From Fimbriimonadaceae bacterium (GTDB taxonomy: Bacteria; Armatimonadota; UBA10988), in the NCBI GenBank assembly GCA_020850355.1, contig JADZEX010000021.1, positions 124,001 through 188,000 of the forward strand: DNA of 64,000 nucleotides. Reading direction: 5' to 3'. Positions 9,654 through 34,337 of this stretch are shown here, piece by piece (positions within the stretch are counted from its first letter, which is position 1; each line of letters starts with the position of its first letter). The position numbers and the translations under genes were made by a program. The notes under the pieces are model-generated. The model was not told the DNA's origin. It did no database searches and saw only the letters and a list, made by a program, of their open reading frames with translations.

Positions 9654-9677
9654 AACCAGCTACCAAGGTACCAGGCC

Positions 9678-9749
9678 TGCCCCTGTCGGGAATTGAACCT
9701 GAATCTACCGCTTAGGAGGCGGTCGCTCTGTCCGTTGAGCTACAGGGGC
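9678..9749 (-). tRNA. tRNA-Arg (CCT)
   Basis: Acceptor stem GCCCCTG/CAGGGGC, anticodon stem ACCGC/GCGGT with loop CTCCTAA, anticodon CCU, reading AGG. Discriminator A; no encoded CCA. Confidence 0.94.
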
Positions 9750-9807
9750 ACACCTGTTGACCACACCGCGCGCTGGCGCGCTGGGTCGCCACGCCGCGCG
9801 CAGCCGA

Positions 9808-9898
9808 CGGAGAGGGCGGGATTCGAACCCGCGATACCCGTTTTAGCGGGTATAACCGCTTAGCAGGCGGCTGCCTTCAGCCACTCGGCCACCTCTCC
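9808..9898 (-). tRNA. tRNA-Ser (GCT)
   Basis: Acceptor stem GGAGAGG/CCTCTCC, long variable arm (TACCCGC..GCGGGTA), anticodon loop CTGCTAA, anticodon GCU, reading AGC/AGU. First gene of the minus-strand RNA operon; no encoded CCA. Confidence 0.95.
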
Positions 9899-9926
9899 GG
9901 TGTTGCCACCGGCAACAAGCTTAGGA

Positions 9927-10061: not shown

Positions 10062-11240
10062 ATGATCGAGGCGCTGACCGTGCGGGGCTTCAAGTCCATC
10101 GTCGACCTGACCGTGGAGCTCGGGCAGGTCAACGTCCTGATCGGTGCCAATGGCAGCGGCAAGTCCAACCTGCTGGAGGCACTCGGCGTGCTCGGAGCTG
10201 CCGCCAATGGACGGGTCGACGACCAGGCCCTGCTCGCCCGCGGCGTGCGACCGGGGGTGCCGAGGCTCTACAAGTCGGCCTTCGGGGATCGGCGGACGCG
10301 GCCCCACATCCACTTCGCCGCCAAGACCGGGAGCCAGAGCTATCAGGTCTCGTTGCAGAACCCGATCGACGATCCAGAGCCCGCCTGGCGGTACCACTCC
10401 GAGCGCTGGCAAGGGCAGCCGGAGGAGGTCCCGCGCGGTCCGCGAGCGCCGGGGACAGGTCCCCACGACCAGGGCCTGGCAGCGCTGCGTGCCGCTGAGA
10501 TTCCAGCCGACTCGCCGAGCCTGCTATTCCTGCGCAGCCTGCAGCGCTATGTGATCTACACGCCCGCCACGGCCGTGCTGCGGGGCACGGCGCCGGAGTC
10601 GCAGCCGAGCAGCCCCCTGGGGCTGTCGGGCGGCGGGCTGCCGCAGGGGCTCCGCCGGCTGATGCGGCCGGGCATCCAGTCGGCGGCCGTGGACCACGTG
10701 CTGAAGGAAGCGCTGGGGCTGGTCCCCTGGGCGACGGCGATCACGGCTGCGCCAGCGGCCTGGCTGCCGTTGTCACCGGCGGCCGCCGCCAGCGCGGAGG
10801 TGGTCTGCTTCCGCGACCGCTACATGAAGGGCGGACGCAACGTCTTGTCGGGCTACGACGCCAGTGAGGGAGCGCTCTATGTGCTGTTCCTGGCGATCCT
10901 GGCCTGTCATCCCGCTGCGCCGCCCCTGTACGCGATTGACAACGCCGACCACGGCCTGAACCCACGGCTGGCCCGGCGGCTGTTCTCCCATTTCTGCCAG
11001 TGGGTGCTGGCCGGCGAGCCGGCTCGCCAGGCCCTCATCACGACCCACAACCCGCTGGTCCTGGACGGGCTCCCGTTGACCGACGACCGCGTCCGCCTCT
11101 TTGCCGTCTCGCGCACCGGCAGCGGGCAAACGGCCGTGCAGCGCATCGTGGTGGATGAGCGCCTTTCGGCGATGGCGGACAAGGGCTGGACCCTCTCCCG
11201 GCTGTGGGTCATGGGACACCTCGGGGGCGTGGATGTCTGA
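10062..11240 (+). CDS. AAA family ATPase, AbiL/RloA-like (cassette 1, ATPase)
   Basis: A 392-residue SMC/RecF-type ATPase. It opens with MIEALTVRGFKSI, Walker A at 28-35 (GANGSGKS), a signature-like SGYDASEGAL at 263-272, and a Walker B region LYAIDNADHGLNPRLARRL at 289-307. The switch His is H329 (TTHN). The residue after the Walker B Asp is Asn294 rather than the usual catalytic Glu. Similar DN variants are, to my memory, seen in this ATPase clade. The ATG at 10062 follows GAGGTGG. Its last 8 nt overlap the start of the partner gene, so the two are surely one operon. ATPases of this kind with small Toprim-like partners are known in abortive-infection systems; that role here is inference. 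Confidence 0.82.
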   Translation: MIEALTVRGFKSIVDLTVELGQVNVLIGANGSGKSNLLEALGVLGAAANGRVDDQALLARGVRPGVPRLYKSAFGDRRTRPHIHFAAKTGSQSYQVSLQNPIDDPEPAWRYHSERWQGQPEEVPRGPRAPGTGPHDQGLAALRAAEIPADSPSLLFLRSLQRYVIYTPATAVLRGTAPESQPSSPLGLSGGGLPQGLRRLMRPGIQSAAVDHVLKEALGLVPWATAITAAPAAWLPLSPAAAASAEVVCFRDRYMKGGRNVLSGYDASEGALYVLFLAILACHPAAPPLYAIDNADHGLNPRLARRLFSHFCQWVLAGEPARQALITTHNPLVLDGLPLTDDRVRLFAVSRTGSGQTAVQRIVVDERLSAMADKGWTLSRLWVMGHLGGVDV

Positions 11241-11940
11241 GCCGCTCAAAGTGGCCTTCGTGACCGAGGGGGTCACCGACTACGATCTCCTGGTCGAGAT
11301 CGTGCGCGGGCTGCTGGGCGAGCGCGAGTTCGTCCCGACGGCGGTTCAGCCGGAGCGCGACTTGGTACGACCGGAGCGTGGTGAGGGATGGCCCGCGGTC
11401 CGCCGCTGGTGCTCGCAAACGGTCGAGCAGACTGCGGGACCGGTCAGCGGTAACCCCCTGCTGCTATGGCACGACCTCCTGGTGGTGCAGCTCGACGCCG
11501 ATGTGGCCGAGCAGAGCTACGCCAGCGGTCACCTTGCCGACGCGGGCGACCTGCCCTGCGCTGCGCCGTGCCCACCCGCCAGCGCAACCACCGACGCGCT
11601 GCGGGCGGTGCTGCTGCGGTGGCTGGCCGAGCCCCAGCCGCCGCGCCGGATCGTGCTCTGCACGCCGTCGAAGCAGATCGAAGCGTGGGTTCTGGCGGGC
11701 CTCTACCCCCAGGATCCGGTCGTGCGGCGCGGCGGTCTGGAGTGCCGCGCCGACCCCTCCGCAACGCTGGGAGGCAAGCCTTTGGCTGGCAAACTGGTCG
11801 CAAGCGGCCGGAAGCGAACGGAGGTCTACCGGCAACGTGCTCCCGAGTTGCGCCAGGCCTGGGCGGAAGTCTGCGCCGTATGCACCGAGGCGGTCCGGTT
11901 CGAGCAGGAGTTCCGGGCAGCGCTGGCCAGCATCGGATGA
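11233..11940 (+). CDS. Toprim-like/DUF4276-like partner protein (cassette 1)
   Basis: A 235-residue protein whose ATG lies inside the end of the ATPase gene (ATGTCTGA, 8-nt overlap). An N-terminal strand VAFVTEGVTD carries E12, and later VVQLDAD carries D88 and D90. This is the E...DxD arrangement of Toprim-type metal sites. QIEAWVLAG at 148-156 is shared in pattern with the partner of cassette 2. Toprim-like partners of SMC-type ATPases are nucleases in OLD, PARIS (AriB) and related defence systems. By analogy this could be the effector, but the family call is from motif reading only. Confidence 0.6.
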   Translation: MSEPLKVAFVTEGVTDYDLLVEIVRGLLGEREFVPTAVQPERDLVRPERGEGWPAVRRWCSQTVEQTAGPVSGNPLLLWHDLLVVQLDADVAEQSYASGHLADAGDLPCAAPCPPASATTDALRAVLLRWLAEPQPPRRIVLCTPSKQIEAWVLAGLYPQDPVVRRGGLECRADPSATLGGKPLAGKLVASGRKRTEVYRQRAPELRQAWAEVCAVCTEAVRFEQEFRAALASIG

Positions 11941-11962
11941 CCGCACTAACCGGCCCTGCCCC

Positions 11963-14122
11963 TCACCACGCCCCATCCAGCTCGCGCTCGACCTGTCCCA
12001 GCCGGCGCCAGTCGTCGCAGGCGGCCTGCAGCAGGGCTGTTGGCGGGGGCGGCAGGGCCGGGGCCTGGCCGCTGCCGGCGGGTTGGTTGGCCAGGGCGTA
12101 GGCCCGCAAGGCGGCGGTCGCCGAGAGCTTGAACCTGGTGTTGTAGAAGCAGTTGCCCCACAACAGCAGCTCCACCGGCGCGGTGCCCGTCTGACGCAGC
12201 TCCGGCTCCAGCGGCTCGCAGTAGAACTGGTTGCCAGCGAACACGAACGCGCCGTGGTAGTCGGTCAGCTGAAACAGCGGATTGGCCTGACCGACGTGGG
12301 CCTTGGCGCCGCTGAAGGTGAGGCGGCCGGGCGGGTCGGTCGGGGCGCCGCTGAGGTGGGCGTGGGCGGCGGCTTGTTCGACGTACCAGTCGCTGGCCAC
12401 CAGGCTGTGGCTGTCGCGCAGCCGCAGCGGGGTGGTTACCAGGGTCGACAGGCGGGTCAGGACACCCAGGAAGCCGTCGCGCTCGCGCGCGGTGCCCTGC
12501 ACCGTGATGGTGCCCTCGTAGCTGGTCCGCAGCAGCACCGTGGCGCGCGCGCAGTCGGTCAGGGTGAGGTTGCCCTGCAGGTGGCCAAGGTCGACGCGGC
12601 AGTGCGGGCCGAGACGCTCCAGGCGCAGACCGCGGACATCGGGCTGGCGCTGGTACATCCCGAAGACGTAGACCCCGTCGTAGGCCATCAGCGAGGGTCG
12701 CCCCGAGGAGGTCTGCACGACATCGGCGCTGGCGGTCACGGGACCGAAGTCGTGGTGCCCAATGCTGAGGTGCTCCAGGCGCACCCGCTGAGGGTCGTGA
12801 ACCGCCAGGATCGGCTGATCCGCCGGACCGCGCCAGAGCAGGGTGCAGCGGAAGCCGGTCCCGCCGACGACGTAGTCGCTGCCGCTGACGCGGAGGGTCT
12901 GGCGGATCACGTAGCGGCCCTGGGGCAGGTAGGCGAGGGCGCCCTGACCGTGCTGCCGGGCGGCGTCGATGGCGGCCTGCACCGCGGCGGTGTCGTCGCT
13001 GGTGCCATCGCCACGGGCGCCGCAGTCGGTGCGGGCGTCGAAGACCTTGCTCGGAACGCTGGCGCTGCTCCGGAAGAAGCGCTCGTCGGGCGACCGGACG
13101 ACCGCTGGCAGGCGGCCGGGCGGGAGCTCGGCCAAGCCCGCGGGGCGCTGTCGGACGGTGTCACGACAGCCGGCGGCAGTGACGTTGCTGACGGTCAACG
13201 GGCGGTCGCCGCGATTGGCGATCGGCGGCTCGGCGCTCGGCGGGCTGCTGAAGGTGACATCGATCAGGGTGGCGGTCGGGCCGCTCAGGACGACCGCACC
13301 GGCCGGGTCGGTCCAGCCGGCGACCTGACAGTCTTGGATGGTCACGGGCACCACCGAGCCGACCTGCCGCAGGAACTGCCGCGAGCCGCGCGAGCTGCAC
13401 CGCCGGACGCTGGAGCCGTGCTCGCTGGCGACGTGGCAATCGACCTCGCGGCTGGCCTCGAAGTGGCAGTTGCGGGCGTAGAAGTTGCCGTGGGTGTCGT
13501 GAATCGCCTGCCCGCAGTCGACAAACGCGCAGCGGTCGAAGGTGTTGTCGTAGTAGTTGAAGGCCAGCATCCCCGCCCCGATGCCGCAGCGCGCGAAGAG
13601 GCAGTTCCAGTAGAGGATCTCCGCGCTGGCCTGCTGCTGGCCGCCGCCCAGTTTGAGGCCAAACTCGCGGCAGTCGACGAAGGCCTCGTACTCGTGCCGC
13701 ACCTCGGTCTCGAAGCGCTGCTGAGAACCGTGGTGGAAGCCCACCGCGGCGCTGCCGCGACCATCCCAGGTGAGCCCAACATAGCGCGCGTAGGCCGCGC
13801 CGTTGCTCTGGAAGAGCGTGCCGTTGGCCGGTCCGTCCCAGACCAGCCGCGTGCTGCGGCCGTGGCCGATCAGCGCCGTGCCGTGGCGCGGACCGTCGAG
13901 GTGCAGCGTGGCGGTCAGGCGGTACGTGCCGGGCGGCAGGTAGACGACCTGCCCGTCGACCAGCTTGTCGAGCACCGCTTGCAGCGCGGCGGTGTCGTCG
14001 GCGCGGCCGTCGCCAACGGCGCCCGGGGTGACGCGGCGCACATTGAGCCAGTCGCTGCGCGGGGTCCAGGCCAGCTCCGGCAGCTCCGGCAGCGTGGCCA
14101 GCAGCAAAGTGCAGAGTAGCAT
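11963..14122 (-). CDS. Secreted two-module right-handed beta-helix protein (pectate lyase superfamily, GH55-like)
   Basis: A 719-residue protein with a short N-terminal signal-like segment (MLLCTLLLATLPELPELA); the ATG at 14122 follows AAAGGA. Two copies of the superfamily entry motif appear, GAVGDGRADDTAALQA near residue 37 and GARGDGTSDDTAAVQAAID in the middle. Each is followed by LPPGTY or LPQGRY and a parallel beta-helix. Paired modules of this type occur in GH55 glucanases and in phage-tail or pectin-lyase-like proteins. I see no certain catalytic residues, so a polysaccharide hydrolase or lyase role is likely but unproven. It lies between the cassette 1 operon (convergent, 22 bp) and the GH-A enzyme upstream. 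Confidence 0.7.
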   Translation of the reverse strand: MLLCTLLLATLPELPELAWTPRSDWLNVRRVTPGAVGDGRADDTAALQAVLDKLVDGQVVYLPPGTYRLTATLHLDGPRHGTALIGHGRSTRLVWDGPANGTLFQSNGAAYARYVGLTWDGRGSAAVGFHHGSQQRFETEVRHEYEAFVDCREFGLKLGGGQQQASAEILYWNCLFARCGIGAGMLAFNYYDNTFDRCAFVDCGQAIHDTHGNFYARNCHFEASREVDCHVASEHGSSVRRCSSRGSRQFLRQVGSVVPVTIQDCQVAGWTDPAGAVVLSGPTATLIDVTFSSPPSAEPPIANRGDRPLTVSNVTAAGCRDTVRQRPAGLAELPPGRLPAVVRSPDERFFRSSASVPSKVFDARTDCGARGDGTSDDTAAVQAAIDAARQHGQGALAYLPQGRYVIRQTLRVSGSDYVVGGTGFRCTLLWRGPADQPILAVHDPQRVRLEHLSIGHHDFGPVTASADVVQTSSGRPSLMAYDGVYVFGMYQRQPDVRGLRLERLGPHCRVDLGHLQGNLTLTDCARATVLLRTSYEGTITVQGTARERDGFLGVLTRLSTLVTTPLRLRDSHSLVASDWYVEQAAAHAHLSGAPTDPPGRLTFSGAKAHVGQANPLFQLTDYHGAFVFAGNQFYCEPLEPELRQTGTAPVELLLWGNCFYNTRFKLSATAALRAYALANQPAGSGQAPALPPPPTALLQAACDDWRRLGQVERELDGAW

Positions 14123-14156
14123 CGGCGGCGTCCTTTCAAGGCCCTCCAGGCGGGTG

Positions 14157-16991
14157 CTACGGGGCCCGCAGCTCCAACACGACCGTTTGCCGGGGCGGCA
14201 ACGCGAGGCGGTAGCCGGCCCCCAGCGGTTGCACGCCGCCGGCCGGGAGCAGGCTCTGAACCAGCCAGGTGGCCGGCCGATCGGGCAGCCGCAGCACGGC
14301 TTCCTTGGAGTAGTCGTCACGGTTCAGCAGCAGCAGCGCCTCGCGTTGCGGTCGGGCGCGGCGGCTGACCAGGATGTTGGGCAATGTGGCGCCGGCGGCG
14401 TCACGCAGTTCGACGGTCTGCCAGGTCGCGGGGAGCGCACCGCCGGCGGCGTGGGTCAGCACCGCGCGCAGCAACCGTTCGAGGCGGTAGCCGGCGAGGT
14501 CGGCGCCGATGGCGTAGACCTGCCCGCGGCCCAGCGCGCGGCGGGTGACCAGCGGCCGGCCCTGGTCGTCGGCCAGCACGACCTGGCTCCCGGCACTCGG
14601 CTGCAGGGGGCGCAGCAGGCCGGCCAAGGGCAGCGCCGGGCTGGTCGCCAGCGCCCGGCCGGCAGCGGGCTCGGCGGCACCGAAGGTCGCGCCAGCGAGG
14701 TCGTCGCCTGGCAACGGCCGGTCGTAGAGATCCCGGTCGGCAGGCTCGATCGCCAACAGCAGCGTCGCGCCGGCCGCCACGCGGGCGCGCAGGTGCTCCC
14801 GCCTGGCGGGCTCGAGGTGGCGCAGGCCGGGGCTGAGCAGCACGTCGAAGCCGTCGAGCGGGCGGTCGCTGGGGGCCAGCGCGAAGTTCCAGTGGCCGTA
14901 GGTAAGGGCCTGGTGGTACGGCGCGCTGCGGTCCTGCAGGCCGGCGTCCCAGCTCTGCCGGCGGGCCTGGGCCCAACTGTAGAGCAGACCCAGCCGCGGG
15001 GTCGGGCCCCATGGTTTGGGTAGCAGGCGGTCGGCCAGCGGCTGCACTTGGGCCGCGAAGTCGTGGATCCCGCGCAGCGCCGAGGTCGGACGGGCGTAGG
15101 GGTTGAGCTCCGAGTAGGGGTACTTGTCGGCCTCGGTGAGCACGGCGGCCTGGCCCTGCCACCAAGCCCAGCCACGCTTGCTCCAACTGAACACGGTCAG
15201 CCCGTCGAGGCCGGCGAAGACCTGCAACCAGAGCCGCTCGCAGACGGCGGCGGCGGTGCTGCCGGTGAGGTAGGTCTCGTTGTCGAAGATCATCTTCGGG
15301 CCGGCCAGCACCCGCAGCAGATCGGGTTCCAGCGGTGAGCTGGAGATCGGCTGTTCCCAGGGTTGCGCCGCTGGTCGGGCTGCGCCGCGGCCGGTGGTCC
15401 AACGGCCCCCGCCGGTCGGCGTCAGGACGACCGTCTCGTGGGCCACCAAGTGGTGCTTCCAGATCGCCTCGCGCGGCAGCAGTGCGTAGCCGCCCATCGG
15501 TTGGACGCCCACCAGCGCCGTCGGCAGCGCGTGCTGGACTTCGTCGACCCCGGCGCGGATCAGCTCTTCGAACAGCCCGGCGAGGTACTCGTCGTAATCA
15601 AGCTGCCGCCCAGCGAAGGCATCGCGGGCCTCGTCCTGGACCGCGGCGGCCGTGGCCAGGTCGGGGTACTGACTGCCCCAGGTTTGGTTCAGCGTCGCCA
15701 CGGTCCCGTAGCGTTGCGCCAGCCAGGCCGCGAAGCCCGCGCGATGGTCGGCGCTGACGCCGCGGTAGGCCGGCTCGTTGAGCAGCTCGTACATCAACAC
15801 GGGCACATTGGCGGCGCGGTAGCGCTCGGCGTAGACCCGCCACAGCCGCAGCCAGGTCTCGCGGCCGGTGCCGTCGGGCCGGTACCAGGTCCAGTGGTGC
15901 CGTCCGGTGGTCAGCGCGCTGGCGGGCAGGGACGACTTGCCCGGTTCGTTGCCCGGCGCGCCGAGCGTCCAGGGCCAGGCGACGGTGTCGACGAAGAACG
16001 GCAGCCCGACGCGGCGGGCCGTCGCGGCCAGCAGGCCGGCGTCTTCTCCACGGTCCCGACCGCGGTAGCCGACGGCGTCCCAGAACGGCTGTCCCGGCAT
16101 CGTCACCGAGTAGCTGTTGAAGCCCAACCGTAGCAGCGCCGCCTGGTCGGGCAGTTGCTCATAGATCCAGGCGTGTTGCGGGGCATAGAGGTTCAGCCCG
16201 GGCACCGGCCCGCGACCGGCCTCAGTGGTGCCGAGCAGGTCGAGCCGATGGTCTTCGCGGCAGTAGGGGTTCAGGACGAAGACTCGCCGGCCCGTGGAGT
16301 CGACGAACTGCCTGTTGACGACGGTCGGCGGACGCTGGTCGGCGCGCAGGGCCGCGGGCAGCTCGGCGACGGTCGGCCAGGTGACCTGCGGCTCGCGGGT
16401 CTCGCGGCTGCCGCGGTCGGCGGCGCTCGGCGGCGGTTCGGCATACCGCACGAAGCCGAGCTCGGCCAGGCCGTAGGCCAGGATCGGCCGCTCGATGCAC
16501 TGGATGCTGAGCCCCCGGACCTCCTGCCCGGCTTGCAGGTTGGTCCAGAAGCGCAGCGGCACGAGCACTTCCTGCCAACTGCCGTCGTCCTCGTCGAGGC
16601 CACGCCCGCCAGCCACGAAGCCGCTGGTGAGGTGCTGGTACTCCGCGCCGGCCACCTCCGGCCGCAGTTGCAGCGCAACGCTGCCGTTCGGGCTGCCGTA
16701 CCGATCGACGCTCGCGTTGACCAGGAACCGCACGAACCCGGCGCGCAGCCAGTCGGCGGTGAGCCGCCAACCTTCGCCGGCCTGGCGTCGCACCGCGACC
16801 CCGGCCCAGGGCTCCGCGCGCCAGTCGTCGTTGAGCCACAGATAGCGCTGGGGGTCGGTCCCGGTCCGCTCGACACAGCGCTGCCGCCACGGTGCCAGGA
16901 CGTGTTGCGGCGCCAGTCCAGCGAGGTAGCAGTCGATCCGTTCGACGGGCTCGGCCGGCGCACCGAGCAGCAGCAGCAGACATCCAAGCAT
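14157..16991 (-). CDS. Secreted clan GH-A glycoside hydrolase (GH42/GH5-like)
   Basis: A 944-residue protein with signal peptide MLGCLLLLLGAPAEP; the ATG at 16991 is in frame with it. A jelly-roll-like N-terminal region (about 20-200) precedes a TIM barrel. In the barrel, LMYELLNEPAYRG places E406 as the predicted acid/base, and MIFDNETYLTG places E572 as a candidate nucleophile. A later region (LGLLYSWAQARRQSWDAG, then RPLDGFDVLLSPGLRHL) resembles the trimerisation domain of GH42 beta-galactosidases, and the C-terminus is beta-rich. It probably cleaves a beta-linked galactoside or related glycan outside the cytoplasm. Substrate is not determinable from sequence. Confidence 0.75.
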   Translation of the reverse strand: MLGCLLLLLGAPAEPVERIDCYLAGLAPQHVLAPWRQRCVERTGTDPQRYLWLNDDWRAEPWAGVAVRRQAGEGWRLTADWLRAGFVRFLVNASVDRYGSPNGSVALQLRPEVAGAEYQHLTSGFVAGGRGLDEDDGSWQEVLVPLRFWTNLQAGQEVRGLSIQCIERPILAYGLAELGFVRYAEPPPSAADRGSRETREPQVTWPTVAELPAALRADQRPPTVVNRQFVDSTGRRVFVLNPYCREDHRLDLLGTTEAGRGPVPGLNLYAPQHAWIYEQLPDQAALLRLGFNSYSVTMPGQPFWDAVGYRGRDRGEDAGLLAATARRVGLPFFVDTVAWPWTLGAPGNEPGKSSLPASALTTGRHHWTWYRPDGTGRETWLRLWRVYAERYRAANVPVLMYELLNEPAYRGVSADHRAGFAAWLAQRYGTVATLNQTWGSQYPDLATAAAVQDEARDAFAGRQLDYDEYLAGLFEELIRAGVDEVQHALPTALVGVQPMGGYALLPREAIWKHHLVAHETVVLTPTGGGRWTTGRGAARPAAQPWEQPISSSPLEPDLLRVLAGPKMIFDNETYLTGSTAAAVCERLWLQVFAGLDGLTVFSWSKRGWAWWQGQAAVLTEADKYPYSELNPYARPTSALRGIHDFAAQVQPLADRLLPKPWGPTPRLGLLYSWAQARRQSWDAGLQDRSAPYHQALTYGHWNFALAPSDRPLDGFDVLLSPGLRHLEPARREHLRARVAAGATLLLAIEPADRDLYDRPLPGDDLAGATFGAAEPAAGRALATSPALPLAGLLRPLQPSAGSQVVLADDQGRPLVTRRALGRGQVYAIGADLAGYRLERLLRAVLTHAAGGALPATWQTVELRDAAGATLPNILVSRRARPQREALLLLNRDDYSKEAVLRLPDRPATWLVQSLLPAGGVQPLGAGYRLALPPRQTVVLELRAP

Positions 16992-17116
16992 CGGTCGCTC
17001 CGCCGTCAGCGTACCCGCGACGCCGGGCCAGGGCAAGTTGGCGCCGGCGAGCGCCGGGCCGCCGCGAGCTGATTCACGTCAAACTGGCGCCTGGCTGCAA
17101 CCCTCCGGGTGGCCGG

Positions 17117-17132
17117 TGTTTCACGTGAAACA
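17117..17132. other. parS: parS centromere-like site (ParB binding site)
   Basis: TGTTTCACGTGAAACA is a perfect 16-bp palindrome identical to the broadly conserved chromosomal parS consensus. ParB/Spo0J nucleates on such sites to organise and segregate the origin region with ParA. It sits in the 192-bp divergent gap between 16991 and 17184. No parA or parB gene is in the window, and I found no second copy. Confidence 0.85.
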
Positions 17133-17183
17133 CGCTTGCCGTCGCCGCCGCCTCGTGGTACACCGGCGCTGCGGAGTCCGGCA

Positions 17184-20135: not shown

Positions 20136-20154
20136 GCTCGGGCCGGGTCGGCGG

Positions 20155-24531: not shown

Positions 24532-24549
24532 CGCCTTCTCCCGCGCGGC

Positions 24550-25563: not shown

Positions 25564-25668
25564 CGGTTGCTCCGCGGCGGGCCATTGCGCGGAGGTTGCC
25601 GAGTTCCTGCCCGATCACCTGACAGGCCGCCCCAAGCTGCGGCAAGATCAGCCCATCGGAGCAACACC

Positions 25669-26502: not shown

Positions 26503-26509
26503 CCGGGGG

Positions 26510-26764
26510 CTAAGTCACTTCGTAGCCGCCGTCGCCGTTCTTGCGCAGGATCTTGAACCCCGCCCGCTTGGCGCGCTGTTCGTTGAGTTGTTTGCCGATC
26601 CGCGGGGTGGCCGTGTAGAACGACCCGATCCGCCGGCTGACCGACGCGCCGCAGCGCGGGCAGAACGGGATCGGTGGCTCGTTGACGTGCTGCCGCGCCG
26701 TGAAGCCCTGCTGGCAGTGCTCACAGCCGAAGTCGTCGTCGGCCTTGTAGTCGTACAGTGGCAT
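26510..26764 (-). CDS. FmdB-family zinc ribbon protein
   Basis: An 84-residue protein starting MPLYDYKADDDFGCEHC. C14-x2-C17 and C35-x2-C38 form the zinc ribbon typical of FmdB-like putative regulators. The tail is basic (QLNEQRAKRAGFKILRK). A role in transcription regulation is proposed for the family but not established. It follows the second GH127-like gene on the minus strand, 8 nt before it ends, so the two are separated by too little space for a second promoter and may be cotranscribed. Confidence 0.85.
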   Translation of the reverse strand: MPLYDYKADDDFGCEHCQQGFTARQHVNEPPIPFCPRCGASVSRRIGSFYTATPRIGKQLNEQRAKRAGFKILRKNGDGGYEVT

Positions 26765-26772
26765 CGTCGTCC

Positions 26773-29208
26773 CTACGGTTCCAACCGCCAGGACAGCATA
26801 CCACCGGAGCAGCCCTCGCGCAGGTCGACCTCGATCCGCAGGGCGCTGGTGGTGACCGCCTCGCAAGTGACGCGGTTGTACTGGTCGGGCGCCACGCCGT
26901 AGACGCCGGCCGGCCGCACCGCCTGCCAGGTCTCGCCATCGCGCCAGAGCAGTCGCCAGGCGGCCGGCACGCGGCACTGCCCCTGACCGGTGTCGTCGAA
27001 CCAGTAGACGCGCACCCCGGTCACCGGGCGCGCCGGTTCGAGCGCCAGCTCGATCCACTCCCGGCCGCCGCGGTGGTCCCACCAGGTGAAGCGCCGGCGC
27101 GTCTGGTCATTGCTGCTGGCGGGATCGCCGGGATCCAAGACTGCGCTGACCGTGTCGCCGGACCAGCAGTGCGAGGCCCGGACCGGGCTCGGCTGTGGCC
27201 GCGGCCAGACTCGCGTGGCGGCCGGGTCGACCAGCGGGAAGGCGCTGATCCGCAGCCGCGCGCAGCCCATCGGGATCAGCCGCAGCGGCTCGCGGGGGCC
27301 CTCGGCCGCGAACGGTCCGGGCTCGACCTCGCCGACCAGGCCGTTCTCCTGGAGCTGCCAGTTGGCGATCCGGCGCCCGGTGGCGCGCAGCTCCAGCGGT
27401 ACCTCGGGCACCCACGGCTGCGCCGGCAGTTCGCCGGTCCGGCGGAACTCTAGGTCGGCCACGGGATCCGCGCCGGTCAGCTCCAGGCCGTAGTTCCAGG
27501 GCCCCGTCGGCCACAACTCCTCGCCGTGCCACGGATCCTCGGCGGCGCCGTAGCGGCGGGTCTCGCTGGGGATCGCCAGCGCCCAGGTCAGCGGCCCGCG
27601 GTCGATGCTGACCGTCCCGCGGTTGCCTTCCCAACGCCGTAGCCGCAGCGGCATCGGCAGCTTCAGGTGGACCTCGTCGCCGTCGCTCCAGGTGCGCTCG
27701 ATCTGCACCCAGGATCCTGCCGCGGGGCTGGCGTCCTGGCCAGCCACCGACACGGTGGCGTTCGGACACCAGGCCGGAATCCGCAGCGTCAGCGGGAAGG
27801 CGACGTCGCGCGGGGTCTGCAGGTGCAGGTGGACGACATCGTCGAAGGGGTACGCGGTGTCTTCGCTGAGCCGCACCGTGGTGCTGCCGTCGCCGACCCG
27901 TGCGGTCACTTGCGACGGCGCGTAGAGCGCGGCGGCCAGCCCGCCGCCGGGCGTCGCCAACCAGAGCTGCTCGGTGTAGGTCGGCCAGCCAAAGGCGACG
28001 TTGTGCTGGCAACAGCGGAAGGCGCGGGGGTTGTAGCTGAACATGTCCCCGCCGTTCTCGATGTCCGGCGCCTTGCTGCCGCGGTCGAGCTGCACCTGGT
28101 TCGGGCAGGTCAGGTAGTGCAACGCCCGCAGGTCGGCGGTCTGCGCGGCGGGCAAGCTGTTGAAGGCAACATCCTCGGTGCGCGCCGCCCAGAGCGGGTC
28201 GCCGGTCAGCCGCAGCAGCAGGCCAGCGCTGTAGATGAACTCGGTCATCGTGCAGGTCTCGGCGCCCTGCCGCGGACCACGGTAACCCGGCCGGGCGTTT
28301 TCGTCGGCGCCAAACAGCCCGCCAGGGACCTCGCCGTACTCGCCCCAGACCTGCGCGTAGACCTGCCGCGTGGCCGCCAGGTGCGCCGGATCACCGCTCT
28401 GCGCCCACCACTGCGCTGGCCCGCGGAAGGCCTCGGCCGCGTTCACGCCGTGGTGGCTCGGCACGCTGCTGCTCCACGGCGCGGTGTGCTCGTGATTGCG
28501 CTGCGCCAGCGCCAGCAGCCACGCCTCGCCAGTCTGGTTGTACAGCCAGTGCAGCCAATCGAGCTGGTCGGCGCCGCGGATCCAGCCCCACCAGCGGCGG
28601 GAGTCGGGGTGAGCCAGGAACTGCTCGTCGGGAATCGCTGCCAGGAACTGCGCGTAGCGCAGCATCAGCGGCAGCACGCGGGCGTCCGCGGTGGCCTCCC
28701 AGTGGCTGCGCAGCGCGAACAGCATCACCATGTTCGGCCACAGGTCGAGCAGCCGCTTGTTCTCGCGCGGGCCGAACCAGCCGTCGGGCTCCTGGCTGCG
28801 GAGCACAGCCTCGATCCAGCGCTCTGCCTCGGCCAGCAGGCGCGGATCGCCGGTCAGGTGGGCCAGTTGCAGGTAGCCGCGCAGCCAGTAGGGCAGCTCC
28901 TCCCAGGGCGAGTGCCCCTGCCCGTCGGCCGCCGCCCAGGCGTTGCCCTCGAAGCGGCAGAAGCTGGCGATCTCCGGCAAGTGACCGGTCAAGCCGTGAG
29001 CCATCAGCCGCAACTGCTCGGCCACCCAACCCTCGGCGGTGACGGCGCCCAGCGGCAGCTTCACCAGCGGGCTTGGCCGCAACGGCGGGCGGTGACCCTG
29101 GTACAGCGCCGGCCCCGCCGGCAGCACGCGCAGCTCGCGGATCATACCTGCCTCCTGCGCCCCGCCGCACGTCGCGGCCAGCAGCCCGGCGCCCAGCCAG
29201 CGCCACAT
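26773..29208 (-). CDS. Secreted GH127-like enzyme (DUF1680) with C-terminal discoidin-like module
   Basis: An 811-residue protein with signal peptide MWRWLGAGLLAATCGGAQ; GAGGAGAC precedes the ATG. The alpha/alpha barrel carries E317 and C319 (GAETCT) and C399-C400 (FRCCQHN). These parallel the zinc ligands and nucleophilic Cys of GH127, with spacing 80 instead of 77. The acid/base equivalent is probably E303 in GADENARPGY, a shifted position typical of a different subfamily. Residues about 690-811 (WWDHRGGREWIELAL, VTGVRVYWFDD) look like an F5/8-type carbohydrate-binding module. It should act outside the cytoplasm on arabinofuranose-type linkages or related sugars; exact specificity is unknown. 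Confidence 0.8.
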   Translation of the reverse strand: MWRWLGAGLLAATCGGAQEAGMIRELRVLPAGPALYQGHRPPLRPSPLVKLPLGAVTAEGWVAEQLRLMAHGLTGHLPEIASFCRFEGNAWAAADGQGHSPWEELPYWLRGYLQLAHLTGDPRLLAEAERWIEAVLRSQEPDGWFGPRENKRLLDLWPNMVMLFALRSHWEATADARVLPLMLRYAQFLAAIPDEQFLAHPDSRRWWGWIRGADQLDWLHWLYNQTGEAWLLALAQRNHEHTAPWSSSVPSHHGVNAAEAFRGPAQWWAQSGDPAHLAATRQVYAQVWGEYGEVPGGLFGADENARPGYRGPRQGAETCTMTEFIYSAGLLLRLTGDPLWAARTEDVAFNSLPAAQTADLRALHYLTCPNQVQLDRGSKAPDIENGGDMFSYNPRAFRCCQHNVAFGWPTYTEQLWLATPGGGLAAALYAPSQVTARVGDGSTTVRLSEDTAYPFDDVVHLHLQTPRDVAFPLTLRIPAWCPNATVSVAGQDASPAAGSWVQIERTWSDGDEVHLKLPMPLRLRRWEGNRGTVSIDRGPLTWALAIPSETRRYGAAEDPWHGEELWPTGPWNYGLELTGADPVADLEFRRTGELPAQPWVPEVPLELRATGRRIANWQLQENGLVGEVEPGPFAAEGPREPLRLIPMGCARLRISAFPLVDPAATRVWPRPQPSPVRASHCWSGDTVSAVLDPGDPASSNDQTRRRFTWWDHRGGREWIELALEPARPVTGVRVYWFDDTGQGQCRVPAAWRLLWRDGETWQAVRPAGVYGVAPDQYNRVTCEAVTTSALRIEVDLREGCSGGMLSWRLEP

Positions 29209-29239
29209 CGCAGTCTCCTCGCCGCCGGCTGGCGCGGCC

Positions 29240-32200
29240 TCAGTGCCCGGCGGCGGGGGCCCGCCAGTCGCGCTTCGTCACGGGCGTCGTGCTGACCGGC
29301 CAACTGGCGCGGTAACGGTCCTGGTAGAGCCCAATCTGCTCGGCCGGGATCGGCCGGAAGCCGACCTGGCTGAGCAGCGGCGCATCGGGCCGCAGCCGGT
29401 AGTCGCCGGCGGCCGCGTCGACAAAGCCGGGGTCGGTCTCGGCGAACTCGCCGTTCTCGACCAGGTTCAGCACAGCCTGGTTGCCGGTGGTCAGGCGGCC
29501 ACAGCGGTAGAACACGTTGCGCCAGAGGTGGTTGATCCCCGGCTCCTGCATCATCGTGGCGATCCGCGGGTAGCGCTGCAGGTAGAGCGCGCTGGTGAAG
29601 AACTCGGCCGGGCTCTTCCGGTCGGCGATCATCCGCCAGACGCTGTTGCCGCTGTTCCAGCCGCCGGAGACGCCCTGTTTGCAGTCGATGAACAGGTTGT
29701 TGTCCATCACATTGTCGCGTCCGCTGTTCATCTGCACGGCGCCAAAGTTGCCGTTGGCGCTGCGGATGAAGATGTTGCCGTAGACCACCATGTCACTGAT
29801 GGCGTCGTCGAAGCGAATCGCCGCCTGCCCGTGGACCGCGGCGCCCTCGCCCGGCTTGCCGCAGTTGGTGAAGCGGTTGTACCGGAAGATCACCCCGCGG
29901 TAGGTCGGGTTCATGAACAGCTCCATGGCGCCCTGGTCGTCGGACTCCAGCACGGCGCTATGGACCTCGTTGAACTCAATCAGGTGGTCGTTGCCCTCGA
30001 TTCGCATCACGCTGCTGGGGCAGTTGTACATCAGGTTGTGAGCCACCCGGTTGCCGACGCCTTCGAGCTGCACCGCCGGGGTGTAGGTCCGGTCGATTCG
30101 CCCGAAGTCCCAGATCCGGCAGTTCTCGACGACGTGCCGCCCCGGCGTCAGCGTGGCGCGGTCGCCGCCGATCACCTCGCTGGCGCGGCGGCCGATGGTG
30201 TGGATGTCGCAGCCCAGCAGCGTGTTGGCCTCGCCGCCCAGGATGCTGATGCCGTTGCCGGCGAAGCGACTGATGCTGCAGCCAGCCACCAGGCAGTTGC
30301 GGCAGTCGGTCAGCAGCAGCCCGTGGTGACGCGCCAGATCGAAGTTCAGACCCTCCAGCCGGACGTGGTTGACCTGTGCCATGGTGACCATCGGTGTGGG
30401 TGTCAGGCCGAGTTCGACGGTCGCCTGGGCCAGGTCACTGGGCGGATAGAGGTAGAGCCGGCCGCTGCGCCGGTCGAGGTAGTACTCGCCCGGCAGGTCC
30501 AACTCTTCGAGCAGGTTGAAGGCGTAGTACTGAATGCCCTGCCCCGGGTGCATCCCGGGCGGGCCGTAGAGGTAGGCCTGCCCACAGCTCAGCGTCTTGG
30601 TGGCCGGATCGATCTTGCTGACCTTGATGGTGGCGTCGGCCCAGAGGTACCGGAAGTAGCCGAACAGCCAGGGCTCTTCGGCCTGCGTCCAGCGCGCGTG
30701 CCGGTCGTCGAGATACTCCACCACCGACGGCTTGTTGGTGCCGCGATCGCCAGGTTCGACCAGCCGCTTGATGCCGACGAAGCCCTGATTTGGCCAGCGC
30801 GCCAGGGTCTGCGCGCGGCCGTTGACGTACAGCTCCAGAGTCGGCGGCGCGGGCGGCTGGGCGAACCCGCGCACCGCCAGTTGGCCGTAGTCGCTAATGC
30901 CCTGCGCCTTGAGGTCAAACTCGACGACCTTGCCACGCGCCTCCTGCGGCAACCGCGCCAGGATCGCCGGGTCGGCCACCAGGCGGCTCTCGCGCAGGCG
31001 CTGGCCGCCGTAGAAGGTGGCCTTGCCCGGCTCGGTGGCACGCCAAACGGTCGGGCCGGCGGCGCTGCCGGAGTCGGCGGCCGTCAGCTCCAGCGGTCCG
31101 GCCACGGGGTACTCGCCGGGCAGCACCTGCACGGCGATGGCGCCCTTCTCACCGCGCGCTCGCAGAGCCCTGACCAGGTCGCGGGCGCGGGTCAGGCTGG
31201 CCACCGGCGCGGCCTGGGTGCCGGCGTTGGCGTCGACGCCTTGCGGGCTGAGCCAGACCTGCGCGGCGTAGGTCGGCACCGCCGGCACCAGCGCCCGGCT
31301 GGCCGCCACCTCGCGCGCGGGCAGGCCCTTGGCGACCCGATCCAACTCGGCGACTTTCTCGGCCGCCTCGAAGCGGTGCGGCTCGGGGTAGTCGCCGACC
31401 GCAGCGATCTTGGTGTACTCCGTCCGCGCCGCCGCGGTCTGGCCCTCGGCCTCGTAGCTCTGGGCGATCCGCAAGTGGGCGTAGCTGCGCAGCCCGAGTG
31501 GCGTGTCCGGCGAGGTTACCAACGCCTGGCAGGCCGTGCGGACCGCGGCGTACTGCTTGTTGGCCCACTGGCCGTGGGTCGCGCGAAAGCCCTCCATCAG
31601 CACCTCCCGCCGCTCGGCGGCCGCGGCCTCCGGCGACTCCGTGACGCCGAAGGTCGCCTTCAGGCGGTTGAACTCGGCCTTCACCACCGCCTTCGGCCAG
31701 GCGGCGCGGGCGACCTTGACCTCGTCCAGCAAGCCCCAGTAGTTGTGCCAGCCATTGCCCAGCGAGAACTCGCTGCCCAGCGAGAAGTCCCCGTCCCAGG
31801 GGTTCGGCAGCGCTGTGCTGCCCTGCTGGAAACCGTTGACGTAGGACGTCACCGACCCGGCCGTGCGGTCGACCACCAGCGCGACGTGGGCCCATTGCTG
31901 CAAAGCCAGCTTGAGGGCCGCGCTGCCGCCGGTCGAGACGGTCTTGCCGTCGGCGGCTTTGTAGCAGAAGTACCACATCAACTGCCCGTTGCCGGACAGG
32001 TCGATCACCAGGTAGGCGTCGGGGTAGGTCCCGCTGGCGAAGATCCGCCGCTGGTTCTGGGGGTCGTTGATGGTGAACTGCTGCGGTCGCAGCCAGGCAC
32101 TGAAGGTCCAGGAGCCCTTCCCGAAGCGCTGTGCGGCCGGCAGGTTGACCGTGACGACGCCGGCCGGCTGCCCGTCGAAGGCCGCCGCGTGCCCCGCCGG

Positions 32201-32377
32201 CGAGGTCGCCCAGGCGGTCGTGACCTTGCCCGGCAGGTTGTTACCCGACCGGTCGGCGGCTGCGGCGCCGGTGCCTTCGTCGAAGGTGTAGTGCAGCAAC
32301 AAGCCCTCCTGCGCGGTGGCGCAGGCGACGGTCAGCAGACTGCATAGCAGCAGCAGGCGATAGCGTGGCGGCAACAT
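29240..32377 (-). CDS. Secreted LamG plus right-handed beta-helix protein
   Basis: A 1045-residue protein. Signal peptide is residues 1-22. A LamG/concanavalin-type domain spans about 25-225 (LLLHYTFDEGTGAAAADRSG, WAHVALVVDR, LLDEVKVARAAW). A helical TPR-like stretch (AHLRIAQSYEAEGQTAAARTEY) covers about 255-350. A long parallel beta-helix follows from AAQVWLSPQGVDANAGT to about 990 (LEGLNFDLARHHGLLL, NCLVAGCSISRFAGNGISI, NVMDNNLFIDC). This architecture is common among secreted polysaccharide lyases and GH141-like enzymes. I could not pick out a sure catalytic pair. It lies 31 nt upstream of the GH127-like gene, same strand. Confidence 0.72.
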   Translation of the reverse strand: MLPPRYRLLLLCSLLTVACATAQEGLLLHYTFDEGTGAAAADRSGNNLPGKVTTAWATSPAGHAAAFDGQPAGVVTVNLPAAQRFGKGSWTFSAWLRPQQFTINDPQNQRRIFASGTYPDAYLVIDLSGNGQLMWYFCYKAADGKTVSTGGSAALKLALQQWAHVALVVDRTAGSVTSYVNGFQQGSTALPNPWDGDFSLGSEFSLGNGWHNYWGLLDEVKVARAAWPKAVVKAEFNRLKATFGVTESPEAAAAERREVLMEGFRATHGQWANKQYAAVRTACQALVTSPDTPLGLRSYAHLRIAQSYEAEGQTAAARTEYTKIAAVGDYPEPHRFEAAEKVAELDRVAKGLPAREVAASRALVPAVPTYAAQVWLSPQGVDANAGTQAAPVASLTRARDLVRALRARGEKGAIAVQVLPGEYPVAGPLELTAADSGSAAGPTVWRATEPGKATFYGGQRLRESRLVADPAILARLPQEARGKVVEFDLKAQGISDYGQLAVRGFAQPPAPPTLELYVNGRAQTLARWPNQGFVGIKRLVEPGDRGTNKPSVVEYLDDRHARWTQAEEPWLFGYFRYLWADATIKVSKIDPATKTLSCGQAYLYGPPGMHPGQGIQYYAFNLLEELDLPGEYYLDRRSGRLYLYPPSDLAQATVELGLTPTPMVTMAQVNHVRLEGLNFDLARHHGLLLTDCRNCLVAGCSISRFAGNGISILGGEANTLLGCDIHTIGRRASEVIGGDRATLTPGRHVVENCRIWDFGRIDRTYTPAVQLEGVGNRVAHNLMYNCPSSVMRIEGNDHLIEFNEVHSAVLESDDQGAMELFMNPTYRGVIFRYNRFTNCGKPGEGAAVHGQAAIRFDDAISDMVVYGNIFIRSANGNFGAVQMNSGRDNVMDNNLFIDCKQGVSGGWNSGNSVWRMIADRKSPAEFFTSALYLQRYPRIATMMQEPGINHLWRNVFYRCGRLTTGNQAVLNLVENGEFAETDPGFVDAAAGDYRLRPDAPLLSQVGFRPIPAEQIGLYQDRYRASWPVSTTPVTKRDWRAPAAGH

Positions 32378-32471
32378 CGGATCGCTCTCCCAGGCCAGGC
32401 GGCTGGTGGTTCGACGGCGTGGGTCGGAATCCTGTTCGCGACCGTCGACGAGGGGCCGGCCGTGGAGGCGC

Positions 32472-32477
32472 TATAAT
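32472..32477 (+). promoter_or_regulatory. Consensus -10 element (TATAAT) for cassette 2
   Basis: A perfect TATAAT lies 20 nt before the ATPase ATG. No -35 with good spacing is visible; TCGACG is 21 nt further up. It gives cassette 2 its own promoter, divergent from the LamG/beta-helix gene. Confidence 0.55.
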
Positions 32478-32497
32478 GCGGGCTGGGGTAACGACCG

Positions 32498-33739
32498 ATG
32501 CTCAATCGGCTGCACGTCACGGGCTTCAAGTCGCTGCGCGACGCGACGGTCGAGTTCGCGCCGCTAACCGTCGTGTTCGGCCCCAACGCCGCCGGCAAGA
32601 GCAACCTGCTGGACGCGGTGCAGGTGCTCTCGTTGCTGGGCACCGCGCGTACCGTGGCCGCGGCGCTGGAGGATCCGGCCGTGCGCGGTCGCCCGGCCGA
32701 GGCTTTCGCGCTGCCCGCCGGCGGCCTGGCGGCCTGGCACCAGCTCGCCGAAGCGCGGCTGGAGCTGGCGGCTGACCTCGCCCTGGCCAGCGGCGACTAC
32801 CGCTATCGCGTCGAAGTGGGCGTGGAGCCAGCGGCGGGGCAGCTCCGCGTCACCGATGAGCGGCTCACCAGCCTGACAGCCCGCGGCGAGTCCAAGCGGT
32901 TGGCGCCTCGGATCGGCCGCGACGGCGACCATCTCCGGGTCCGCCAGCGGGGCAGCGGCGGGCATCCCTACCAGGAGCAACTCGGGCTCGGACACACGCT
33001 GCTCTCCGATGGCCGGTTCGCTGGGGACCAGTACCCTGAGATTGTCGAGACCCGGGCCGAGCTGGCCGCCTGGCGGGTCTACTACCTCGACCCGCGGACC
33101 GCGATGCGCCAACCAGCACCGCCGCGGGAAGCCGACGACATCGGTCCGCTCGGCGCAGACCTTGCCCCGTTCCTGAATCGTCTGCAGGCAGCGCCGGAGC
33201 ACGGCCGCTGCTACCAGCGGCTGCAAGAACTGGTGCGGTACCTGATCCCGGCCGTCAGCGCGGTGCAGGTCGAACTCGACCAGCGCCGCGGGGTGCTCGA
33301 CCTGACGGTGGTGGAGGGCGGGGTGGAGTACTCCAGCCGGGTGGTTTCCGAGGGCACCTTGCGCGTGCTGGCGCTCTGCGCCCTCGCCGTCAACCCGTGG
33401 CGCGCTCAGCTGGTGGGGTACGAGGAGCCCGAGAACGGCGTCCATCCGCGGCGCCTGGAGCAGATCGCCAACCTGCTGCTGGACGTCGCCGAGAGCGGCA
33501 CCCAGGTGATCCTGACGACCCATTCGCCGCTGCTGGTGCGGCACTTCGCCGAGGCCCGGCGCCAGGATCCGGACCAGATTCGCCTGCTGGCGGTGCACCG
33601 CGACCGGCAGGGCACCTCCTTCGAGCCCTTCGACGATCGCGACCTGTTCCTGGATGCAGACATCGACGACAGTCTCAGCGAGCCGCTGGCAGCGCCCCGC
33701 CTGGAGACGGCCCTGGCGCGTGGGTGGTTCGATGCCTGA
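32498..33739 (+). CDS. AAA family ATPase, OLD/RecF-like (cassette 2, ATPase)
   Basis: A 413-residue ATPase. It starts MLNRLHVTGFKSLRDATVEF, has Walker A at 28-35 (GPNAAGKS), a signature-like VSEGTLRVLAL at 283-293, and a canonical Walker B with catalytic Glu, VGYEEPENGVHP (306-317). The switch motif is TTHSPLL (H342). The N-terminal layout matches cassette 1 position for position (GFKS at 9-12, Walker A at 28-35). The final 8 nt overlap the partner ATG, as in cassette 1. Proteins of this kind power DNA- or phage-sensing defence complexes with Toprim partners. Function here is inferred from that association. Confidence 0.85.
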   Translation: MLNRLHVTGFKSLRDATVEFAPLTVVFGPNAAGKSNLLDAVQVLSLLGTARTVAAALEDPAVRGRPAEAFALPAGGLAAWHQLAEARLELAADLALASGDYRYRVEVGVEPAAGQLRVTDERLTSLTARGESKRLAPRIGRDGDHLRVRQRGSGGHPYQEQLGLGHTLLSDGRFAGDQYPEIVETRAELAAWRVYYLDPRTAMRQPAPPREADDIGPLGADLAPFLNRLQAAPEHGRCYQRLQELVRYLIPAVSAVQVELDQRRGVLDLTVVEGGVEYSSRVVSEGTLRVLALCALAVNPWRAQLVGYEEPENGVHPRRLEQIANLLLDVAESGTQVILTTHSPLLVRHFAEARRQDPDQIRLLAVHRDRQGTSFEPFDDRDLFLDADIDDSLSEPLAAPRLETALARGWFDA

Positions 33740-34337
33740 CCCGCGTCGCGTCGTGGTCTTCGCCGAAGACACCGCCACCGACCAGTACGGCCAGGCTCTC
33801 CTGGAGCGCCTCGGCGGCGAGGGCGGAGTCAGCTTGGAGGTGGTCTCGGCTGTCCGGGAGGGCGGCGCCGCACGGGCGGTCAACGAGCTGGTTGCCTACC
33901 AGCGCCGGTGCCAGCGCCGCGGGGTGGCCCGCGGCCCGGTCGACCTCGGCGTGGTGATCCTCGACGCCGACCGCAAGGGTTGGGCGGACAGCCGGAAGCG
34001 CCTGCTCCAAGCCATCGACCCCGCGACCTTCCCGCTGGTCGCCGTCGGGTGCCCCGACCCGCATGTTGAGCGCTGGTACCTGGCCGACCGCAGTGCGTTT
34101 CGGCAGACCTACGGCGCCGAGCCCGCGACGCCGTCGCCAGGACGCCCTGGCACGGACTGCAAGCGGCTGATCCTCGAGGCCTTGCGAGCGGCCGGCGATC
34201 CGTTGCCGCGACTGTATCCCAGCGCCGCCGGGCGACTGGTGCAGGCGCAGGACCTCGAGCGCGCCGGGCGTGAAGTCGCCGAGCTGGACCACTTCATCAA
34301 GGAGTTGCGAGCGGCGCTACAGCGCCTCGCCGGCTGA
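33732..34337 (+). CDS. Toprim-like/DUF4276-like partner protein (cassette 2)
   Basis: A 201-residue protein whose ATG is in the overlap ATGCCTGA. VVVFAEDTATD carries E12, and GVVILDADRKGW carries D78 and D80, a Toprim-like E...DxD set. PHVERWYLAD at 110-119 matches the pattern of the partner in cassette 1 and of DUF4276 proteins. It probably forms a complex with the upstream ATPase and may be a nuclease. The last 21 nt overlap the convergent acetamidase gene, so the two coding regions share 34317-34337. Confidence 0.62.
   Translation: MPDPRRVVVFAEDTATDQYGQALLERLGGEGGVSLEVVSAVREGGAARAVNELVAYQRRCQRRGVARGPVDLGVVILDADRKGWADSRKRLLQAIDPATFPLVAVGCPDPHVERWYLADRSAFRQTYGAEPATPSPGRPGTDCKRLILEALRAAGDPLPRLYPSAAGRLVQAQDLERAGREVAELDHFIKELRAALQRLAG

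Follow-up and report, generated by a model that had tools for sequence, protein, structure and literature searches.

Split systems in which an ATP-binding cassette (ABC) ATPase and a Toprim-type protein are encoded by two adjacent genes are widespread, and among those compared here PARIS has a worked-out mechanism. PARIS comprises the ABC ATPase AriA and the Toprim tRNase AriB and has been proposed as Class 4 OLD (passages of PMC10568477); in it, AriB is held by a hexamer of AriA until a phage protein triggers its release, whereupon it cuts tRNA (passages of PMC12409363). AAA:TOPRIM_OLD pairs of the AbiL/RloB sort have been tested in Escherichia coli as a toxin and its neutraliser, and RloB proteins are reported near type I restriction genes (passages of PMC10440598). 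Two groups of candidates listed in PADLOC are also relevant. PDCs are putative candidates obtained by 'guilt-by-embedding', with validation pending for most of the core set, and HECs are Hma-embedded candidates, some with demonstrated activity (passages of PMC12988326); elsewhere PDC systems are termed unpublished candidates (passages of PMC11811056). We analysed a stretch of 64,000 nucleotides (nt), hereafter the window, from a Fimbriimonadaceae bacterium (genome of 6.67 Mb in 117 contigs, window on contig 22), which carries two look-alike cassettes of an ATPase gene followed by a partner gene. On balance we favour, with moderate confidence, the view that both cassettes are two-gene abortive-infection units that have spread horizontally, each made of a split ABC ATPase and a Toprim nuclease and similar to PARIS and AbiL.

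Translation of the window confirmed both gene pairs, with an identical gene order (Table 1). A reading of the sequence alone (the sequence-only reading) had pointed to several common landmarks, and all of them are present: GFKS at residues 9-12 and the P-loop (Walker A) at 28-35 in both ATPases, E12 and LDAD in both partners (D88/D90 in partner 1 and D78/D80 in partner 2), a QIEAW segment in partner 1 and its HVERW counterpart in partner 2, an overlap of exactly 8 nt in each pair, ATGTCTGA and ATGCCTGA, and partners of unequal length.

Table 1. Positions of the two cassettes, their overlaps and the neighbouring RNA cluster in the window
Feature	Position	Strand	Basis or remark
ATPase 1, PDC-M31A, RecF/OLD-type ABC ATPase, 392 aa	10062..11240	+	translation, PADLOC, Pfam AAA_21
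Partner 1, PDC-M31B, 235 aa, predicted Toprim-type nuclease	11233..11940	+	PADLOC, AlphaFold2 model, conservation
Cassette 1 overlap ATGTCTGA, 8 nt	11233..11240	+	sequence reading
ATPase 2, HEC-01A-like ABC ATPase, 413 aa	32498..33739	+	PADLOC PDLC04184, Pfam AAA_21, alignment
Partner 2, 201 aa, DUF4276-like clade, predicted divergent Toprim-type nuclease	33732..34337	+	DUF4276, profile homology, alignment
Cassette 2 overlap ATGCCTGA, 8 nt	33732..33739	+	sequence reading
RNA cluster: large bacterial signal recognition particle (SRP) RNA and five tRNAs (Ser, Arg, Ser, Arg, Ser)	9096..9899	-	context, not part of the system

The cassettes had been thought possibly undescribed, which is wrong for cassette 1 and partly wrong for cassette 2. 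Cassette 1 is the PADLOC candidate PDC-M31: ATPase 1 matched PDC-M31A with 481.5 bits (E 5.5e-145) over residues 1-390 of 392 and profile positions 1-392 of 395, and partner 1, whose gene lies directly downstream and overlaps that of ATPase 1, matched PDC-M31B with 218.4 bits over residues 1-231. With both proteins matching almost end to end and the gene order alike, nothing in cassette 1 sets it outside this family, for which the PADLOC model gives no mechanism. ATPase 2 matched HEC-01A (PDLC04184; 210.5 bits in two stretches, the best at 130-364) and partner 2 matched HEC-01B weakly (best E 0.002, 15.8 bits). The two-gene layout of HEC-01 (Hma-embedded candidate 1) is like that of cassette 2; the difference is that partner 2 falls in a divergent DUF4276-like clade with HVERW and the 8-nt coupling. 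Neither 'PDC-M31' nor 'DUF4276' was named by any paper in the literature searched, preprints being outside its scope. In Pfam, both ATPases matched AAA_21 and AAA_15 (AAA_21 with 79.1 bits for ATPase 1 and 95.4 bits for ATPase 2). ATPase 2 also matched the MADS MAD3 ATPase (NCBIfam NF047739), but its 128 bits fall well short of the curated cut-off, 420 bits.

The cassettes resemble PARIS in having an ATPase and a Toprim-type partner (a Toprim fold being likely for partner 1) on two adjacent genes. They differ from it in that no AriB-named PADLOC model was among the partner hits at E ≤ 1, which were PDC-M31B and HEC-01B only, and in that the M31A protein of cassette 1 lacks the catalytic Walker B glutamate. 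The sequence family of AriB, which we take to be DUF4435, was matched by neither partner, since Pfam at E ≤ 1 gave no family for partner 1 and only DUF4276 for partner 2. With AbiL/RloAB (an AAA ATPase and an RloB-type OLD_TOPRIM protein) both cassettes have the two-gene idea in common; moreover, M31 pairs can adjoin type I restriction genes and some M31B proteins weakly match RloB (see below), but neither partner of the window does so. The AbiLi model matched both ATPases (E 4.5e-13 and 4e-21) but covered at most positions 49-262 of 326. As for the OLD nucleases (P2 Old, TsOLD, GajA, retron Eco8), the ATPase superfamily and the order of the metal residues are alike, whereas these enzymes are single-chain ATPase-Toprim proteins and the cassettes consist of two separate genes. 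No retron RNA was found in the window by Rfam, and the seven flanking genes scanned include neither a helicase nor a reverse transcriptase.

We then compared the two cassettes with each other. The partner families aligned by profile (94.9%, E 4.2e-8) over nearly their full length, with E12 opposite E12, DAD opposite DAD and IEAW opposite VERW. For the ATPase families, the profile alignment had 99.7% probability. Judged by these profiles, the resemblance exceeds chance and both cassettes belong to one homologous superfamily, which ties together two PADLOC candidates, PDC-M31 and the HEC-01/DUF4276-like clade. Identity between the window proteins is 28% for the ATPases and 32% for the partners, and they are therefore old relatives. 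A recent duplication of one cassette is ruled out by these values and by each ATPase being closer to relatives from other genomes. The window genome holds at least four further ATPase-partner pairs, L057 and L022 (contig 15), L213 (contig 11) and L214 (contig 35), meaning that the family is indeed expanded in this genome, as had been proposed, with at least six such pairs. The cassette-2 partner profile matched the partner in three of these four; in the remaining one, L022, a scan of a 158-aa part gave a sub-threshold match to DUF4276 (E 2.4e-5).

The fold of partner 1 was approached through a structural model. The protein matched no Pfam family at E ≤ 1, hence neither DUF4276 nor RloB; within the M31B family, four of 25 members matched DUF4276 at E ≤ 0.1 (best 9e-6) and two of 25 matched RloB weakly (E about 0.02). 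An AlphaFold2 model made from 25 sequences had a predicted local distance difference test score (pLDDT) of 90.9, and its five best VIA-align rows were all Toprim chains belonging to defence ATPases and represented three proteins. These were the C-terminal region of Xanthomonas OLD (6njv, 6njw and 6njx, with Z of 7.2, 7.1 and 6.9; root-mean-square deviation (rmsd) of 4.2 over 159 aligned residues for 6njv), Thermus OLD (6p74; Z 6.6, rmsd 5.0, 145 aligned) and chain A of the PARIS structure 8ux9, taken as AriB by its length and fold (Z 6.5, rmsd 4.5, 172 aligned). The next rows were an unrelated protein at 5.5 and retron Eco2 at 5.3. Because a VIA Z under 8 may stem from a common arrangement, and all values here are under 8, we rate a Toprim fold for partner 1, predicted from this model, as likely and not as settled. 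Toprim chains are thus the best structural matches, at modest Z, and the description of the cassettes as an ATPase with a Toprim/DUF4276-type partner, kin of the AbiL/RloB/PARIS kind, was largely right.

The 25 M31B sequences come from several phyla, and a set of residues is strongly conserved among them: D16, D88, W152 and K194 in all 25, E12 in 24, D90 in 23 and E150 in 19. In TsOLD the metal A and B residues are E377, D381, D431, D433, S478 and E480, and Bp OLD has a basic residue, K562 (passages of PMC7049728). Partner 1 E12/D16, D88/D90, E150 and K194 follow the order of these OLD metal-site residues, the correspondence being one of order along the chain and not of superposition. The conservation of M31B residues in this order therefore supports the Toprim nuclease reading on the sequence side, and the third Toprim motif would correspond to the QIEAW/HVERW segment. 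Testable active-site residues are thereby offered for M31B, a family without a Pfam name. One M31B copy, L013 (G062:C461), has a long insertion at the DxD motif and is possibly broken or altered.

In partner 2 the corresponding residues, by alignment, are E12, D78, D80, E113 and W115. This protein matched DUF4276 (PF14103) with 14.1 bits (E 0.056), below the Pfam gathering score of 30.2 bits, and all five aligned members of its clade matched DUF4276 at E ≤ 0.1 (best 2.6e-12). There was no RloB match for partner 2 in Pfam, and one of five clade relatives matched RloB at E about 0.02. Partner 2 is predicted to be a nuclease because it is homologous to partner 1 and DUF4276-like.

We looked at the ATPases for the residues of the catalytic site. 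The residue that follows the Walker B aspartate is the catalytic glutamate of ABC ATPases. ATPase 2 has it (EEPEN at 309-313), whereas in ATPase 1 the aspartate D293 is followed by N294; ATPase 1 also carries an asparagine at the D-loop position (N300), and its H-loop histidine is H329. ATPase 1 has AIDNADHGLNP as its Walker B; this non-canonical motif, already pointed out in the sequence-only reading, is real and common to its family. Across 26 aligned M31A sequences the Walker B aspartate is invariant. It is followed by Asn in 22 sequences and by Ser in the other 4, and 24 have Asn at the D-loop position, where TsOLD has His. In a wider set, the glutamate was absent from all 50 M31A proteins with a readable motif (43 Asn, 5 Ser, 1 Asp and 1 Thr) and kept in all 64 related ATPases (12/12 cassette-2-like and 52/52 other). 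This set was drawn from open reading frames (ORFs) of at least 250 aa and excluded loci L002-L020 and L188-L212. Sequences identical over their last 200 residues were counted once, and classes were assigned from in-house profile scores; 13 ATPases in which the regular expression found no motif (1 M31A, 2 cassette-2-like, 10 other) were not counted. Since M31A lacks the catalytic Walker B glutamate, it probably hydrolyses ATP poorly. The replacement of this glutamate in every M31A protein with a readable motif is new here and may surprise a specialist. In TsOLD, mutants of Walker A, Walker B (E276), the Q-loop and the H-loop had lost hydrolysis, and a D-loop mutant had it reduced about fourfold (passages of PMC7049728).

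The 8-nt overlap was then surveyed in relatives of both cassettes. For cassette 1, 21 rows reached at least 300 bits against ATPase 1, of which 19 were used (L060, whose contig ends inside the partner, and L062, the same contig as L005, were left out). An ATG or GTG start giving an 8-nt overlap is available in 16 of these 19 pairs and missing in L010, L064 and L066, it being understood that the count refers to available starts and that certain pairs offer alternative ones as well. Below 300 bits such a start occurs in only two of 19 rows, L011 and L013, both with fragmentary ATPase frames. For cassette 2, all six relatives above 250 bits (window, L051, L052, L053, L054 and L158) have the 8-nt overlap, L158 even though its partner frame is broken. 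It is not found in weaker relatives (14 nt in L033, no partner frame at the junction in L055 and L056). Overlaps of 4 nt are common in bacteria, and those of the four other ATPase-partner pairs of the window genome are mostly of this length. Two separate clades thus have the 8-nt overlap as a characteristic. That it marks the superfamily in general is ruled out by the count of only two of 19 rows below 300 bits and by the mostly 4-nt pairs of this genome.

Both cassettes are patchily distributed, variable in placement and missing at related sites, and are not conserved core genes of the relatives. Among 291 genomes of the phylum, the own genome being included in each count, PDC-M31B was found in 11 and the partner 2 clade profile in 20, and neither was found in the three same-family relatives, for two of which completeness is only 72% and 80%. 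ATPase 2 relatives at E ≤ 1e-20 occur in 14 of the 291 and are mostly distant; the same-family genome G002 has one such distant relative, at 32% identity. Across named genomes, M31A above 200 bits was present in at least 22 loci, among 80 examined, and the host titles among the matches listed include proteobacteria, acidobacteria, cyanobacteria, spirochaetes, clostridia, Fermentibacteria and myxococci. One of the 22 loci, L062, is labelled Actinomycetota in the public record but equals a contig of G037, which is placed in the phylum of the window.

A conjugative Enterobacter plasmid, NZ_CP042572.1 (L021), carries an M31 pair with the 8-nt overlap, preceded by traD, traI and a DsbA-family gene and followed by CBASS-type genes (our reading of the annotated SAVED, ThiF and Mov34 genes) and an integrase. 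This pair had no match in E. coli by megablast or blastn. A tellurium-resistance (Ter) gene cluster lies farther along the plasmid (L021, L187). An M31 pair, with ATPase and partner, is present in 14 of 19 loci on viral contigs, these contigs being predictions, and an unannotated phage record, MT837299.1, matched ATPase 1 at 38%; partner 1 had no match in phage records. Partner 2 had no match in plasmids and viral contigs. On one predicted viral contig (L158, from position 7229 onwards) there is a relative of ATPase 2 with 48% identity, next to a partner frame that follows the family for about 10 codons only; a downstream alternative frame shows, by eye, an NPPY methylase-like motif. Three other viral contigs (L154, L155 and L156) have ATPase genes with a 4-nt overlap and a different type of downstream partner, with CxxC and HNH-like motifs and a Septu-like appearance by eye.

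Neighbouring genes were scanned for 20 M31A loci, namely the 22 above 200 bits without L060 and L062. The 125 ORFs obtained were picked by length, some being possibly spurious, and two very long ones were left out, so that 123 were scanned; families were taken from the best 25 of 166 in Pfam and the best 25 of 131 in PADLOC. Within these lists at least three of the 123 ORFs matched type I restriction enzymes, near the pairs of a Spirochaetaceae locus (L068), an Aeromonas locus (L071) and a Pseudomonadota locus (L072). A MAD3-like protein is encoded near the L061 pair and a PD-T4-6/kinase-like protein near the L073 pair, and the neighbours differ among the loci examined.

By analogy, both cassettes would share the layout of PARIS and of the AAA:TOPRIM_OLD pairs, and we infer a defence role for both, together with complex formation, toxicity, the sensing of a trigger, a substrate and phage resistance. 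The ATPase would assemble and keep its small nuclease partner inactive, and the 8-nt overlap would couple the synthesis of the two. A trigger from an invading phage (or plasmid) would change the state of the ATPase and free or activate the partner, which would cut tRNA, as AriB of PARIS does, or DNA, as OLD does, through its E...DxD metal site, and cell growth would stop before phage release. In cassette 1 ATP binding may be the main determinant of the ATPase state, with hydrolysis slight or absent, because ATPase 1 lacks the catalytic Walker B glutamate; in cassette 2, where this residue is kept, the ATPase probably cycles. One and the same genome therefore offers a natural contrast with which to test whether such sensors need ATP hydrolysis. 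A more specific proposal, which we consider possible but doubtful, is that M31 is a distinct switch that has lost hydrolysis family-wide (Walker B D-N/S-x-D, D-loop Asn for His) and works as an ATP-binding lock. The ATP-bound ATPase would then hold the nuclease and let it go when the phage shifts nucleotide levels or displaces the partner, and not via an ATPase cycle.

Several observations, in addition to the modest Z values, weigh against an ATPase-gated defence nuclease. None of the TsOLD ATPase mutants mentioned above alters nuclease activity in vitro (passages of PMC7049728), and an ATPase-gated nuclease is therefore not a given. The Toprim rows exceed the best unrelated row by a Z of only 1.0, Foldseek alone found no match in the Protein Data Bank for the partner 1 model at E ≤ 0.001 (best 0.097), and the M31B sequence profile found no relative among solved structures. 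The metal residues themselves vary, E12 being Lys in one of the 25 sequences, D90 lost in two and E150 changed in six, and the copy on the Enterobacter plasmid has no counterpart of E150, the motif-3 glutamate. The model of partner 2, to which only two relatives were added, is poor (pLDDT 59.4), and the 50 matches listed for it contain no Toprim protein but PIWI proteins, lumazine synthases and other Rossmann-like folds; this structure search was not used for the fold claim. Mobile carriage of M31 is rare in the annotated collections, with one plasmid record of 72,556 and one phage record of 50,697, the latter matched by the ATPase query only. Among the seven flanking genes scanned in the window Pfam gave no defence genes, and four of nine large M31 neighbours examined had no PADLOC match at E ≤ 1e-30. 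M31 does occur near defence genes, but we claim occurrence and not enrichment, because the lists of neighbour families were capped and the scan covered M31 loci only.

Could the pairs be host DNA-repair or chromosome-maintenance factors, with a RecF/Rad50/OLD-like ATPase and a nuclease, and have no part in immunity? The ATPases do fall in the RecF/SMC/Rad50/OLD group, and for an OLD-family ATPase of archaea a role as a cell-cycle factor, apparently unconnected with defence, has been described (passages of PMC12796447). Moreover, the flanking genes scanned are metabolic and the G+C content of the cassettes (70.8% and 72.1%) is local-like (window 71.8%); a foreign composition was looked for and not seen. 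We nevertheless regard a housekeeping role as quite improbable, given that both partners are absent from the three same-family relatives (G002 having its distant ATPase 2 relative) and confined to a minority of the phylum, that an M31 pair sits beside CBASS-type genes on a conjugative plasmid and others on 14 predicted viral contigs, and that the neighbours vary from one M31 locus to another.

The plasmid and viral carriage, as well as the tight translational coupling, would also suit toxin-antitoxin modules that mainly stabilise mobile elements, in which the nuclease is neutralised by its ATPase and nothing specific to phages is sensed, and the assays of AAA:TOPRIM_OLD pairs as toxin and neutraliser in E. 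coli (PMC10440598, in the passages cited above) go in the same direction. This is unlikely in our view: the type I restriction genes close to the pair in a spirochaete locus and in two loci of Pseudomonadota point to immunity, PARIS, a well-studied split pair, is trigger-activated (passages of PMC12409363), and the seven flanking genes scanned include no integrase or other mobile-element gene. The variation in E150 and D90, the plasmid copy without the motif-3 glutamate and the unproven fold of partner 2 raise yet another question, namely whether the partner is still a nuclease or has become a DUF4276-type regulatory or binding protein with a degenerate Toprim site. We give this a slim chance, as the near-complete conservation of E12 and the invariance of D16, D88, W152 and K194 in M31B are the pattern expected of an active metal site. 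A two-gene abortive-infection unit thus remains the reading that we favour for each cassette.

The genomic sites of both cassettes were compared with those of related genomes. Cassette 1 sits 163 nt from the RNA cluster, and the five-tRNA cluster, its order kept, with the SRP RNA stretch was found in all three same-family relatives (G001, G002 and G003) without cassette 1. Integration into a tRNA end was considered for cassette 1 and is not supported: the cassette begins 5' of the outermost tRNA, on the opposite strand and at that distance, and no integrase is among the seven flanking genes scanned. For cassette 2, the left neighbour has a relative in G001 and the right neighbour one in G002, and no cassette 2 was present in the 4-6 kb beyond these relatives. 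These do not count as clean empty sites, since rearrangement has also affected the flanking genes. By Pfam, the seven flanking genes scanned encode esterase-, pectate-lyase- and beta-helix-like proteins, an arabinofuranosidase, an amidase, an oligogalacturonate lyase and one protein without a family. Genes of a plant-polysaccharide type (pectate-lyase-like, GH127 arabinofuranosidase and oligogalacturonate lyase) lie on the - strand between positions 11963 and 36455 of the window.

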